Shown one piece after another: positions 33,023 to 38,284 of a stretch of DNA of 64,000 bases; positions within the stretch are counted from its first letter, which is position 1; the number at the start of each line of letters is the position of its first letter. Under the pieces are notes generated by a model that had not been told where the DNA came from, did no database searches, and was given only the letters and a program-made list of their open reading frames with translations. Origin of the DNA: Vibrio palustris (GTDB lineage Bacteria > Pseudomonadota > Gammaproteobacteria > Enterobacterales > Vibrionaceae); contig NZ_AP024887.1 in the NCBI RefSeq assembly GCF_024346995.1, positions 1,116,001 to 1,180,000 on the forward strand. The letters run 5' to 3'. The position numbers and the translations under genes were made by a program.

Positions 33023-34024
33023 TTATTCACCCGCTTTCAGGTAAGAAAAATGCTCTTCTTGCACGGCAAAGTGCTTCATTGCATAGTCAACACGTTCATC
33101 ACCACGGGGTGGAATGAGTGGTTTCTCTTGCTCTTCTAAGTGCGTTAAGCGTGGTAGTAACCCAGCACCATTCGCAATCTGAATCGCAAGACCTGGGCGA
33201 GCGTTAAGCTCTAATACCATAGGGCCTTTTTTCTTATCCAGCACCATATCCGTCCCCATGTACCCAAGGCCGGTCATATCCCAAGCACTTGCGGCTAACG
33301 TTAAAAGCTTACGCCAGTGCGGTACTTGGAGTGTCGATAAATCTTTACCGGTATCGGGATGATGAGTGATAGGGCGGTTGAATTGCACCGCTTTCACGGC
33401 TTTACCTGTCCCCAAATCAATCCCCACACCCACGGCGCCTTGGTGCAAGTTCGCTTTTCCGTCTGACGCTGCAGTAGATAGGCGCATCATTGCCATGACA
33501 GGATAACCTTGAAATACGATGATACGTACGTCAGGTACGCCTTCGTAGCTAAAGCCTTCAAAACAGTCGTCGAACTCGATTAAGTTCTCAATAAGAGCCA
33601 CATCGTTTTTCCCTCCTAGGGAAAACAATCCCGCCAAGGTATTGCTGATGTGACGCTCAACGTCTTCTTTACCAATGACGGCGCCGCTTGGTTTCGTGTA
33701 GGTACCATCTTTGTGTGATGTTACAACTAGAATACCTTTACCACCACTGCCGCGCGCAGGTTTGATAACAAACCCAGGCCAAGACTCCACCATCTTATGA
33801 ATATCACGTACTGCACCTTGGTCAGTGACGATGCCGATAAGCTCTGGCACTGTCGCTCCTGCTTTACGTGCAATCATTTTGGTTTGTAGCTTGTCATCCA
33901 CCAATGGATATTTCGAACGGTCATTATAACGTCCAATATAACTATGGTTACGTTGGTTCATACCCATAATGCCTTTACGGCGTAGCTTAAATGGTGATGT
34001 GTATTCTGATATTGAAAACAGCAT
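33023..34024 (-). CDS. Alpha-L-glutamate ligase-like ATP-grasp protein (TIGR02291 type)
   Basis: A 333-residue ATP-grasp ligase of the RimK-related group. The ATP-binding glycine loop FVIKPARGSGGKGILVV lies near residues 88-104, and the metal-binding end GPMVLELNARPG near 266-277. RimK relatives join amino acids, usually glutamate, to a peptide or protein carboxyl end; the substrate here is unknown. It is the third gene of a tight operon: the 7TM protein ends one base upstream, and the retropepsin-like lipoprotein precedes that. No signal peptide is seen, so it acts in the cytoplasm, perhaps against the membrane partner. A terminator follows. Confidence 0.85.
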   Translation of the reverse strand: MLFSISEYTSPFKLRRKGIMGMNQRNHSYIGRYNDRSKYPLVDDKLQTKMIARKAGATVPELIGIVTDQGAVRDIHKMVESWPGFVIKPARGSGGKGILVVTSHKDGTYTKPSGAVIGKEDVERHISNTLAGLFSLGGKNDVALIENLIEFDDCFEGFSYEGVPDVRIIVFQGYPVMAMMRLSTAASDGKANLHQGAVGVGIDLGTGKAVKAVQFNRPITHHPDTGKDLSTLQVPHWRKLLTLAASAWDMTGLGYMGTDMVLDKKKGPMVLELNARPGLAIQIANGAGLLPRLTHLEEQEKPLIPPRGDERVDYAMKHFAVQEEHFSYLKAGE

Positions 34025-34025
34025 A

Positions 34026-35534
34026 TCAACCCTCGTCAGCTAGTGGTTTAAAGCGACGTAACTCTGAAATTCGGTAACCTGTATAGGTGCCGAGCAGTAA
34101 GATGATAGCCATAACAACCAATTGCAAACCAATAAAGTTAAAGGTTAGGTGCTGGATGTAGGAGTTGGTCATCGCTAGGTAAATCAAGATTGCGGTAAAT
34201 AGTGAACCACCGCCTTGCATTACGACTTCTTTCGCGCCTTCTTCTTCCCAGAGAATTGACATACGTTCAATAGTCCAAGACAAGATGATCATTGGGAAGA
34301 ACGTAATGGTTAAACCTTCGGTTAAGCCCAGTTTAAAGGCAACAACCGTGAAGAGCGAGATTATCAAAATAACCGCAATAATCACCGCTGATATTCGCGA
34401 CACCAGGAGCAAGTTCAGTTTCGATAGGTAACTTCGTATAATCAGACCGGTGCCGACGATTAATAAGAACCCTATAATCCCCGTCATTAGCTGAGTCTGC
34501 ACAAAGGCAACGGCAATCAACACCGGCATAAACGTACCCGAGGTTTTTAAACCGACAATAACACGCAAAAATACAACAATTAACGCACCAATAGGGATGA
34601 GCATGATGGTTTTAAACATTGCTTGCTCTTCAAGCGGTAAGCTGTGAATAGACAAGTTTAATAGGCCATCAGCATCGACCTTGCTTGATGTTGCTTGGCT
34701 TGGCGACACATCTTGTGAAATCATACTAAAGTAGACTTCGCTGTTTTTACCACCGACCACATCAAGTAGTGAAACGTTTGATTCATCCCAGACTAACAAA
34801 TTTGGGTGAGACGGCTGTGTGCCTGTTTCAGGGTTAAATAGTACCCATTTTTTACCATTCCAAACTTCGTTCATCATTTGAATGGACTGGCGACGACGAC
34901 CATCTTCTAATTCAATGACACCGACAACTTTGTTTTGAACCTGAGCGTAAGACAGTAATTTCTGCGTCGCTTCATACTTTGACATGTTGTTGAGGATCAA
35001 CGATGAGTTCTGGCTATCTGGATCGTTTAAGGTTTTCACCAGTTCGCGAGCGAAACTCACTGAATCTGACGACAAACGAGTCGCTTGATTAATCAGTGCA
35101 ATCGCCGCTGCTTGTTCTGGGCCACTAAAGGTTGGCTTTTCTATTTCACCGGTTGGCGGAATTGTTGAGGCTTGCGCATTCGGGTCAACCAAAAATTGAG
35201 CTTTGTAATAAATCGTCTGTGGACCCTTCGCATTGCGAACTGACCATTCTGCACGGCGACCAGAATTACTGCTAATGTAAGAAACTCCGTAACCTGGAGA
35301 CGACGCGCTTTCACTGATGAGTGTAAAGCCATCTTGCGTGGCAGGAGCCGCGAGCGATACCTTAACGGGTTTATCCATTGCATTAAATTCGACACGAGCT
35401 TCAAGGTCCCAAACTTGGCGACTTTCTCCTGGTGTCCATGGCACACCATATTGCTGATGCCGAAGTATGCTTAAAGTGATTCCTGCAATAATCAATAGCA
35501 ATATCGATATATAAAATGGCACTTTTGATGTCAT
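34026..35534 (-). CDS. Inactive transglutaminase fused to seven membrane helices
   Basis: The 502-residue protein starts with one membrane helix (about 6-24), then a periplasmic region (about 30-270). Its later part is transglutaminase-like (NEVWNGKKWVLFNPETG near 225-241), but the usual His and Asp positions are replaced and no catalytic Cys stands out. The C-terminal half (about 310-490) has roughly seven hydrophobic segments and ends in a basic cytoplasmic tail. This matches the family described as inactive transglutaminase fused to 7TM helices. The gene lies nine bases after the retropepsin gene and one base before the ATP-grasp gene, so the three products very likely act together at the inner membrane. 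Function unknown. Confidence 0.85.
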   Translation of the reverse strand: MTSKVPFYISILLLIIAGITLSILRHQQYGVPWTPGESRQVWDLEARVEFNAMDKPVKVSLAAPATQDGFTLISESASSPGYGVSYISSNSGRRAEWSVRNAKGPQTIYYKAQFLVDPNAQASTIPPTGEIEKPTFSGPEQAAAIALINQATRLSSDSVSFARELVKTLNDPDSQNSSLILNNMSKYEATQKLLSYAQVQNKVVGVIELEDGRRRQSIQMMNEVWNGKKWVLFNPETGTQPSHPNLLVWDESNVSLLDVVGGKNSEVYFSMISQDVSPSQATSSKVDADGLLNLSIHSLPLEEQAMFKTIMLIPIGALIVVFLRVIVGLKTSGTFMPVLIAVAFVQTQLMTGIIGFLLIVGTGLIIRSYLSKLNLLLVSRISAVIIAVILIISLFTVVAFKLGLTEGLTITFFPMIILSWTIERMSILWEEEGAKEVVMQGGGSLFTAILIYLAMTNSYIQHLTFNFIGLQLVVMAIILLLGTYTGYRISELRRFKPLADEG

Positions 35535-35543
35535 AATTGGCCT

Positions 35544-36302
35544 TTATTTTTTAGTATTATCAGATTGAATAAATTCTTTACCCACATCCACTACCGCGAT
35601 ATCACGAATAAATTCGCGTCCGAGTAAAATAGCGTGGCTCATTTCTTTGCGGTCTGCCAGTGTAAATGGGGTTTGTTCGTGAATATTCCCGAGTTTTACC
35701 CACAATTTGATCACGGCACGGCGTTCTGCTTTTTCCGAATTAGCTTGACGTATGCGGACATGACGTAAAATAGGCGCTTCTACCCAAGGTGTCCGTTTAT
35801 TCGCGTTATCACCTTTAACTAAATGAAAACGAACCCAGTTTTTACCATTACGTTCGAATTCTTGTACATCGACGGCGTTTAATGAAGAGGTCGCGGCACC
35901 GGTATCAACACGAGCTTTAAAAGACTGATTAATGGCATCTATCGAGACATTTTCAACGCTGCCTAGAACAATTTTATTACGTGGCTTATGAGCTGGGATG
36001 GTTAAATTTCCTAATTTATTATTTTGCTCTTCAGCGTTATCCGTAGTATTTGATTCTATTTGAGAGGTCGTCTGTTCGAGAGTGGTGACATGGTTTTTTA
36101 ATTCGTGTATTTCTCGTTGTAAGCTATCAATGAAATCCATTTGATTGCTCAGCTGTAATTCGACATTCGTCAAATGAGCATTGACGTTTGACTCTGAACG
36201 ATGGATGGCGGCGAGCGTAGCTTGATGATAATTATCACCTTGCATCATCGTACAACCAGACAACATACTTAGCGCGATGATGGGGGCTATTCGCTTAAAC
36301 AT
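35544..36302 (-). CDS. Retropepsin-like lipoprotein (RimB/zinc-protease-like family PF05618)
   Basis: The 252-residue protein has a lipoprotein signal with Cys17 in MLSGC, a coiled-coil or helical stretch with heptads (about 40-90), and a C-terminal single-copy retropepsin fold. The catalytic DTGA is at residues 133-136, with the usual hydrophobic-glycine LLGREFI near the end. Family members are annotated as ATP-dependent zinc proteases but their fold is aspartic-protease-like. The Cys is followed by Thr-Met, so outer-membrane sorting is plausible. It is the first gene of the three-gene operon and probably trims or processes what the ATP-grasp partner builds, or a periplasmic target. Confidence 0.82.
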   Translation of the reverse strand: MFKRIAPIIALSMLSGCTMMQGDNYHQATLAAIHRSESNVNAHLTNVELQLSNQMDFIDSLQREIHELKNHVTTLEQTTSQIESNTTDNAEEQNNKLGNLTIPAHKPRNKIVLGSVENVSIDAINQSFKARVDTGAATSSLNAVDVQEFERNGKNWVRFHLVKGDNANKRTPWVEAPILRHVRIRQANSEKAERRAVIKLWVKLGNIHEQTPFTLADRKEMSHAILLGREFIRDIAVVDVGKEFIQSDNTKK

Positions 36303-36484: not shown

Positions 36485-37456
36485 TTATGGCTTTTTAGCC
36501 ACTAATATTGCACGACGAGGTGCAGGGTAGCCTTCCACGGTTAGTGATGGGTTATTTGGGTCAATATAATCAGGTAATGAATTATGAGTCATCCACTCAG
36601 TGGAGCGTTGCTCACCCAATGATGTATCATTCTCATCAACAATGTTTACATCGATAAACCCAACTTTTTCTAACCAAACTTTCAATGCCTTAGCTGATGG
36701 AAAAAAGTAAACATTACGCATTTGCGCATAGCGATCAGCTGGAATTAAAACATCATTCTCATCCCCTGTAATCACCAATGTTTCTAAAATGAGTTCACCA
36801 CCTGACACTAATTGATCTTTTAATTGAATTAAATGATCTAATGGAGAGCGGCGGTGATATAACACGCCCATGCTAAATACCGTGTCAAACGCTTCCAGTT
36901 TTGGTAGTTGCTCAATACCGAGCGGTAAAAGCTGGGCCTGTTGACTGTTGCCCATTAATTTGCGGATAGCTTCAAATTGAACTAAAAATAACGTCGATGG
37001 ATCAATTCCATACACTTGGCGCGCCCCAGCTCCTAGCATGCGCCACATATGGTAACCATTGCCACACCCGACATCTAACACGGTGCGGTTGGTTAAGTCG
37101 CTAATATGCGGTAATAATCGCTCCCACTTCCAATCTGAGCGCCATTCGGTATCAATATGGACGCCATGGACATGGTAAGGCCCTTTACGCCAAGGGTGTA
37201 AGATCTTCAGAATATTTTCGAGTTTTTGTTGCTCACCCTCGTGCAGTGGCTGTTCATTACGCACGGATACCGAGTCTTTCATATCTATATGATCAGGCGT
37301 CGCATCAGAGATTTTTTTTAACGCGCGTAACCAACGGTCTAAATCTCCATGGGATTGTGATTGCCAGTCATCCAATTGCTGCGGCAAAACATTGAGCCAC
37401 GCTTGCAAACGGGTATCTTGAGCCAGAAGTTGATAGACGTTACCAAAATTAAACAT
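36485..37456 (-). CDS. cmoB: tRNA U34 carboxymethyltransferase CmoB
   Basis: CmoB uses carboxy-SAM made by CmoA to convert ho5U34 to cmo5U34 in tRNAs that read four-fold degenerate codons. The 323-residue protein matches E. coli CmoB throughout: [20 protein letters not shown], motif [31 protein letters not shown], and [12 protein letters not shown]. It follows cmoA on the same strand after an 87-base gap that contains two interleaved inverted repeats, and its ribosome site CAGGTAATGG is close to their end. A terminator lies downstream. Confidence 0.96.
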
Positions 37457-37473
37457 GAAACCATTACCTGAAA

Positions 37474-37538
37474 ACTAGTCCAAAATAAAATTGAAAAGTA
37501 AGGTACGCGGACTAGTATTGCGACGCCCACTTTTCAAT
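37474..37538 (-). promoter_or_regulatory. Interleaved inverted repeats (pseudoknot topology) in the cmoA-cmoB gap
   Basis: Read 5' to 3' on the minus strand: ATTGAAAAGT (37538-37529), 12 bases, ACTAGTCC (37516-37509), 9 bases, ACTTTTCAAT (37499-37490), TTTATTTT, GGACTAGT (37481-37474). The first and third blocks are perfect 10-bp complements and the second and fourth perfect 8-bp complements, giving the order 1-2-1'-2'. That is an H-type pseudoknot if formed together. Alternatively the 10-bp stem followed by TTTATTTT resembles a weak terminator, with the 8-bp pairing as its competitor. The last arm ends 17 bases before the cmoB ATG. Confidence 0.7.
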
Positions 37539-37543
37539 GGCAA

Positions 37544-38284
<741 letters not shown>

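Follow-up and report, generated by a model that had tools for sequence, protein, structure and literature searches.

Several Vibrio appear to keep a pseudoknot of varying sequence and similar shape just upstream of the cmoB ribosome-binding site

Several Vibrio appear to keep an RNA pseudoknot of varying sequence and similar shape just 5' of the cmoB ribosome-binding site, a pattern suggesting that cmoB translation is controlled in part by the shape as such. Interleaved inverted repeats occur between cmoA and cmoB in Vibrio palustris and recur with other sequences in several clades, the first stem carries compensatory changes, and the element stands before an AGG. The reference leader lies in a 64,000-nucleotide stretch of the V. 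palustris contig NZ_AP024887.1 (hereafter the window), in an 87-nt gap (37457-37543) between two minus-strand ORFs which we take to be cmoA and cmoB, as the sequence-only reading of this DNA had named them (Table 1).

The gap holds two perfect inverted repeats, of 10 and 8 bp, interleaved in the order b'-a'-b-a on the mRNA strand. With the core repeats only, the loops measure 12, 9 and 8 nt, so that the two stems stand in the order of an H-type pseudoknot with feasible loops. The sequence-only reading had reported these repeats, their loops and the 17 nt between the last arm and the cmoB ATG, all of which we found as described, and the arrangement exceeds what shuffled sequences give: the best interleaved helix pair, which contains both repeats, was equalled by 0/300, 0/400 and 0/200 dinucleotide shuffles in three runs. 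When a' is held single-stranded, RNAfold extends stem 1 to a predicted 18 bp over the whole arms listed in Table 1, and the predicted loops of this extended model are L1=3, L2=0 and L3=8; if the 10-bp core alone forms, the loop of stem 1 is 29 nt. The same reading had suggested that the two stems might be alternatives; the geometry lets both form at once. The strict limits of our finder (L1 1-6, L2 0-3, L3 5-25) exclude the 10-bp repeat of the window, with its loops of 12 and 9 nt, and the finder joins stem 2 to another stem of 4 bp, a pair equalled by 4/500 shuffles.

Table 1. Features of the cmoA-cmoB region, in positions of the window
Feature	Position	Strand	Description	Basis
cmoA	37544..38275	-	243 aa; its C-terminus served to parse relatives	ORF
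Stem 1, 5' arm b'	37520..37538	-	perfect 10-bp core 37529-37538, AUUGAAAAGU; inward extension to 37520	extension predicted
Loop 1, extended model	37517..37519	-	AAU	predicted
Stem 2, 5' arm a'	37509..37516	-	ACUAGUCC	sequence
Stem 1, 3' arm b	37490..37508	-	perfect core 37490-37499, ACUUUUCAAU; extension to 37508	extension predicted
Loop 3	37482..37489	-	UUUAUUUU, the U-run of the sequence-only reading	sequence
Stem 2, 3' arm a	37474..37481	-	GGACUAGU; ends 17 nt before the cmoB ATG	
Probable SD core of cmoB	37467..37469	-	AGG; 4 nt past stem 2, 10 nt before the ATG	sequence
cmoB	36485..37456	-	323 aa; relatives found	ORF

An origin as a repeat element was rejected, the gap being single-copy in its own genome: BLAST at E<=10 gave 12 matches, none of them significant apart from the gap itself, and the next best had an E of 0.21. 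A weak promoter-like pair (TTGCCA, 18 nt, AATACT; 9/12) overlaps the knot at 37514-37543 on the minus strand; promoter-like sites in the region number 6, against 5.2 expected. On the 3' side of cmoB, three minus-strand ORFs at 33023-36302 resemble, by a reading of their translations only, a retropepsin-like lipoprotein, a 7-TM protein and a RimK-like ligase.

Relatives comprised the best 80 of 284 named loci, 30 from a genus search (227 genomes) and 30 from a family search (197 genomes), and a further 140 stretches taken by place brought the total to 280 loci, in which some genomes, the window's own included, are counted twice. The 270 loci that could be parsed hold 193 distinct gaps, 24 of them shorter than 50 nt, 123 of 50-130 nt and 46 longer. 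Shuffle tests covered the 129 distinct gaps of 50-140 nt, leaving aside 40 over 140 nt and 24 under 50 nt; removal of near-duplicates and of gaps below 60 nt yielded a set of 91 gaps of 60-140 nt, 73 of which were not read as knots by hand. Four loci (L293-L296) stand outside all counts, the finder giving -22.7 for L294 without shuffles.

The cmoA-cmoB gap is hypervariable, and many Vibrio carry tandem CGAGAAG units, palindromic repeats of about 100 nt, or almost no gap. The CGAGAAG units vary in copy number and begin right after the cmoA stop (L019, L020, L032, L040, L049, L070, L145, L254, L276). The repeat of about 100 nt has palindromic ends (GTCATCCTCAAGAGCGAGGAACGAG... to ...CCCTCACTGTAGGGAATGAC, with variants) and lies inside the gap of 12 loci (L018, L021, L024, L025, L031, L034, L046, L047, L053, L054, L058, L075). 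Many knot-free gaps, such as those of L036, L040 and L053, end in CAGTGAAAAACT followed by ATG and have no AGG box; GUGA may serve as SD in these leaders.

Different sequences produce the b'-a'-b-a order in V. mimicus and genomes like it, in the window and L090, in L094/L097 and in V. plantisponsor, V. furnissii, V. anguillarum, V. injensis and V. proteolyticus; it is also present in V. nereis, V. hepatarius and L133, and perhaps in V. maerlii. Successive arms read CUGUGUUCGC / GAGUCCCA / GCGAACACAG / UGGGACUC in L094, GUUCC / GCCCUGAC / GGAAC / GUCAGGGC in V. furnissii, and UUCAUGCUUGG / UCUCUGC / CCAAGCAUGAA / GCAGAGA in V. mimicus. L090, from genome G103, is the closest DNA match of the genus (71% identity across the region) and likewise has the interleaved repeats, so that their presence in a close relative, on which the sequence-only reading had let its claim depend, is borne out. 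By leaf order only, in a cmoB tree of 105 sequences, the knot clades from V. mimicus to V. proteolyticus share one part of the tree, which also has leaders without a clear knot (e.g. L056, L077, L082, L085 and the L076/L084/L144 group), and V. nereis, V. hepatarius, L133 and V. maerlii are scattered. We keep several weak or ambiguous cases outside the claim, namely the cincinnatiensis group (L051/L057/L099), L077 of aestuarianus, the V. ruber L084 group (L076/L084/L144/L281/L286) and stem 2 of metschnikovii L042, which has one mismatch. Among 20 stretches from other genera of the Vibrionaceae, 18 were parsed and 13 have gaps below 50 nt, too short for the element; one of the other five non-Vibrio gaps, L163, owes its score in the finder to tandem CCTAGGT units.

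The start of cmoB was not seen after cmoA in seven stretches (L182, L188, L189, L207, L212, L215, L224), and for four of these seven genomes (G064, G099, G128, G058) cmoB lies elsewhere in the assembly. Promoter-like sequence was seen by eye in four cmoB leaders apart from cmoA (L289-L292); L086 is a cmoB without cmoA upstream. We did not find any clear copy of the knot in these four leaders or in L086, by eye and without shuffles, an absence that is not decisive because those genomes may lie outside the knot-bearing lineage.

Arms were typed by hand for 26 leaders, 21 of which could be placed; L095, L133, L030, L074 and L109 were left out because their arms overlap by 1-2 bases. In the placed leaders L1 measures 1-6 nt apart from 12 in the window and 11 in L090; L2 is 0-6 nt with the window again excepted (9), and L3 is 8-22 nt, sizes near the textbook H-type shape. 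The end of stem 2 precedes the AUG by 15-31 nt and the AGG by 1-18 nt, and stem 1 begins anywhere from 5 to 61 nt past the cmoA stop; the element is thus tied more to the start of cmoB than to the stop of cmoA. A programmed frameshift or readthrough after cmoA was rejected, given this 5-61 nt spacer in 21 leaders and the lack of any general rise in codon conservation. In some genomes the last 65 nt of cmoA do have high DNA identity, which reflects the conserved peptide, since among 194 distinct sequences we found no codon-conservation excess at the cmoA end beyond single codons. In L133, L030, L074 and L109 the stem 2 sequence UCUAGG recurs at the SD (UCUAGGAA), so that a' could pair with the SD instead; this recurrence is absent in the window and in mimicus.

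In the deduplicated set, an AGG is present in 18/18 hand-picked knot leaders against 13/73 of the others. These 73 leaders are more AU-rich (median 0.646 against 0.583 in knot leaders, p 0.002) and less folded (p 0.023), and they are not richer in U (p 0.56). Pooled over 17 hand-read knots, L3 is 47% U against 33% across whole gaps; outside the window it reads, for example, GCGUCCAAACC... or CCAUAGAAAACUU. No loop nucleotides common to the clades were found by eye, and the stems differ between clades too.

Folding energies were estimated crudely, with a flat pseudoknot penalty of +7 kcal/mol and no coaxial stacking; the five unplaced leaders were folded with trimmed arms, arm a of L030 and L074 being set on the copy at the SD. 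On this rough scale the knot of the window comes to -26.3 kcal/mol against -21.1 for the nested fold, and the knot beats the nested fold in 5/25 leaders (the window, L094, L097, L010 and L206). Energy folding of L183 did not recover its hand-placed stem 1.

For comparison with other intergenic sequence, 55 deduplicated co-directional gaps (from 97) were taken as controls from the window and from loci longer than 3,000 bases. With the strict finder and no split, 23/91 gaps reached p<=0.05 against 5/55 controls (Fisher 0.012), and the comparison is weaker at stricter cut-offs (12/91 against 3/55 at p<=0.01, Fisher 0.11). When the leaders were split by AGG, a division that like the strict limits was picked after the data had been viewed, p<=0.05 was reached by 16/31 leaders with AGG against 7/60 without (Fisher 6e-5) and against 5/55 controls (2e-5), the AGG-bearing controls giving 2/12. 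The combined strict p-values were 1.4e-14 with AGG, 0.63 without AGG and 0.35 for the controls. A looser finder gave 19/31, 4/60 and 8/55 respectively, with a combined value of 0.022 for the controls, which are therefore not perfectly null. Pieces of cmoA coding sequence from the same loci scored in 1/31, and the reverse strand of the AGG gaps in 9/31 against 16/31 forward. The helices chosen by the finder differ from the hand-read ones in several strict matches (the window, L090, L038 and L012), and the strict finder misses the hand-read knots of L185 and L208.

Evidence for selection on the pairing itself comes from alignments within clades. Alignments A1-A6 were used for reading and the trimmed A7 and A8 for counting, because A2 and A3 misplace the 3' arm. 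In nereis/hepatarius (A7, four sequences, ungapped), 6/11 pairs of stem 1 are changed on both sides and still paired, a count reached in 52/500 shuffles and in which 5/6 pairs separate only two lineages. The covariation score of A7 (0.537) was equalled by 0/500 shuffles, and over the whole structure 94.4% of cells are paired, against 35-51% with the partner slid. Between L094 and L097, two sequences only, 4/16 pairs of stem 1 are compensated, with 29/500 shuffles as high. Stem 2 hardly varies within clades: 6/7 of its pairs are invariant in A7, and among the mimicus-like leaders L206 breaks one pair for which L185 has a compensatory change. Compensatory changes are thus seen in stem 1, whereas the covariation of stem 2, mostly invariant within clades, is weak.

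Since stem 2 varies so little, its support is positional. Stem 1 was held while the following 45 nt were shuffled in 23 loci, and stem 2 stood out in the window (p 0.0025), L090 (0.007), L094 (0.014), furnissii (0.0025), mimicus (0.0055) and hepatarius (0.0075); it was borderline in L097, L029, L133, L074 and L080 (p 0.055-0.098) and not significant in L009 (0.32), L091 (0.27), L190 (0.20) and L042 (0.72). With one locus for each of 13 clades, chosen by eye for a visible knot, the combined p is 4.2e-11, and for the same 13 clades 4.7e-6 when the loop is shuffled instead. Sequence comparison thus supports stem 1 through covariation; the support for stem 2, whose covariation is thin, lies in its position and in its presence with other sequences in other clades. 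The pseudoknot proposed before cmoB by the sequence-only reading gains from both results, the compensatory changes of stem 1 in relatives and a stem 2 beyond chance in many of the tested clades.

The reading we favour, to which we give about an even chance, is that an H-type pseudoknot kept for its shape directly 5' of the cmoB SD sets cmoB initiation independently of cmoA, more likely as a docking or standby site for S1 and the 30S subunit than as a repressor. The intercistronic RNA would fold into the knot at the place where the 30S subunit and ribosomal protein S1 first meet the mRNA; S1 and the 30S subunit would bind it as a docking or standby element, and the knot would set how efficiently ribosomes start on cmoB, whatever happens at cmoA. 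We infer that it folds in the cell and acts on translation initiation, with S1 as its probable partner and a sign of effect that is likelier to be helpful than repressive. Docking or standby is the most likely role because it needs only a shape, because S1 has known pseudoknot targets, and because the cmoB knots have, by eye, no common loop nucleotides and no relevant Rfam match.

The structured cmoB leader looks real and of a known kind, with a presumed function. The pseudoknots of repZ/repA on IncI-alpha, IncB and IncL/M plasmids are likewise intercistronic, just upstream of the SD of the downstream gene, and affect its translation, as the cmoB knot would. They are long-range and coupled to a leader peptide and an antisense RNA, unlike the cmoB knot, which is local and lies at a variable distance from the upstream stop; we know of no antisense RNA at the cmoA-cmoB gap. 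According to the available text of PMC10931766, high-affinity targets of S1 include pseudoknots as well as U-rich or AU-rich sites 5' of the SD, and the portions of the tisB study to hand (PMC7708055) argue that S1-binding pseudoknots are structurally diverse and of varied topology. As described there, E. coli tisB resembles the present case in having an H-type pseudoknot 5' of the start, with a proposed action by shape through 30S/S1, and in that related knots differ in stems and loops (PMC7708055). It differs in that the mRNA encodes a toxin and carries the knot close to its 5' end, the standby region being 100 nt upstream of an RBS that is sequestered (PMC7708055), whereas the cmoB knot lies between two genes, 1-18 nt from the SD core. 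The E. coli infC-rpmI-rplT operon mRNA also has a pseudoknot that ribosomes bind, but this one is long-range, belongs to a ribosomal-protein operon and is bound by bL20 because it resembles that protein's site on 23S rRNA, in the account available from PMC10931766. In the same account, the rpsO/S15 knots lie at or upstream of the SD, the mycobacterial ones upstream, and use a U-G/C-G motif and uS15 (PMC10931766), in contrast to the cmoB knots, which by eye have no motif common to the clades. In open-licence literature on cmoB and in structured-RNA surveys, as far as their available text goes, we found no earlier report of a cmoA-cmoB pseudoknot.

The next candidate after docking, and one that we consider rather unlikely, is a repressive gate of the rpsO/S15 type, in which the knot, either unaided or in complex with a ribosomal protein or CmoB, bars the 30S subunit from the cmoB SD. 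The close approach of stem 2 to the AGG, at 4 nt in the window and 1 nt in L080/L190/L042, speaks for it, and so do mycobacterial rpsO pseudoknots, which repress from upstream of the initiation site through uS15 in the available part of PMC10931766. However, in 9/21 placed leaders stem 2 ends 14-18 nt before the AGG and leaves the SD free, and the clades have in common, by eye, none of the loop or stem nucleotides that a specific protein would need.

A translational coupling device is improbable in our view. Ribosomes finishing cmoA would open b', the knot would rearrange and access to the cmoB start would change, as in the plasmid repZ/repA leaders. Stem 1 begins 5-6 nt past the cmoA stop in the window, L090, L094, L097, L009 and L011, within reach of the terminating ribosome, but 36-61 nt past it in the mimicus-like and metschnikovii-like clades, which is beyond that reach. 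Structure just past an upstream stop went with less coupling in a screen cited by a review (PMC12548453, as far as its available text shows), and an insulating role for the knot would also fit that screen.

That the knot has no function, having arisen by chance or as what is left of intergenic repeats that gather in this gap, seems quite improbable. The hypervariability of the gap, the tandem and palindromic repeats of other Vibrio, the reverse-strand score and the weak unsplit comparison with controls speak for such an origin; the return of the arrangement at one place, in one order and with different sequences speaks against it, as does the compensation in stem 1.

The sequence-only reading had also suggested a ligand- or tRNA-linked switch responding to SAM, carboxy-SAM or prephenate, which we regard as very improbable. 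Pathway logic is all that favours it, together with the fact that the SAM-II and preQ1-II riboswitches, like the present element, are H-type pseudoknots that precede an SD. Those riboswitches have a conserved ligand-binding core; the cmoB knot, unlike them, matches no riboswitch in Rfam and has, by eye, no loop or core nucleotides conserved between clades. In the window region, at E<=5 with permissive filters, the only Rfam match was a weak one to a human lncRNA family on the opposite strand, and 10 relatives gave no match at E<=1. The lack of common loop nucleotides and of an Rfam match speaks strongly against a usual metabolite switch, and metabolite riboswitches (SAM-II, preQ1-II or another Rfam family) were accordingly rejected.

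Least probable of all is a transcription attenuator in which stem 1 and UUUAUUUU halt RNA polymerase and stem 2 competes: the terminator-like U-run noted after stem 1 in the window also occurs in L3 of L009 and L012 but is missing in L029, L079, L183 and L133, and stem 1 with its 10-bp core alone would close a loop of 29 nt. A hairpin with a U-run is thus not common to the relatives, and an intrinsic terminator or attenuator was rejected. Our terminator scan found none at stem 1, to which it is blind, as it admits only loops of 3-8 nt.

Returning to docking by S1 and the 30S subunit, we tentatively, and with clearly less than even confidence, extend it to a "sequence-free" element before cmoB. 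An old pseudoknot would have had its stem 1 rewritten repeatedly while its shape and place were kept as a platform for S1/30S, and elsewhere it would have been replaced by more AU-rich leaders without AGG or by near-adjoining genes.

CmoA and then CmoB produce cmo5U, a wobble modification that broadens codon reading. If the translation of CmoB has a structural control of its own, the balance between making and using carboxy-SAM could be set after transcription. The orthologous leaders, with one fold and many sequences, offer a test bed for how the ribosome and S1 recognize RNA shape, and they suggest that motif finders may miss structured intercistronic elements once no sequence motif remains. 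If the idea of a sequence-free element is true, the Vibrio leaders would show, as a series made by nature, that selection for ribosome docking can act on RNA shape alone.
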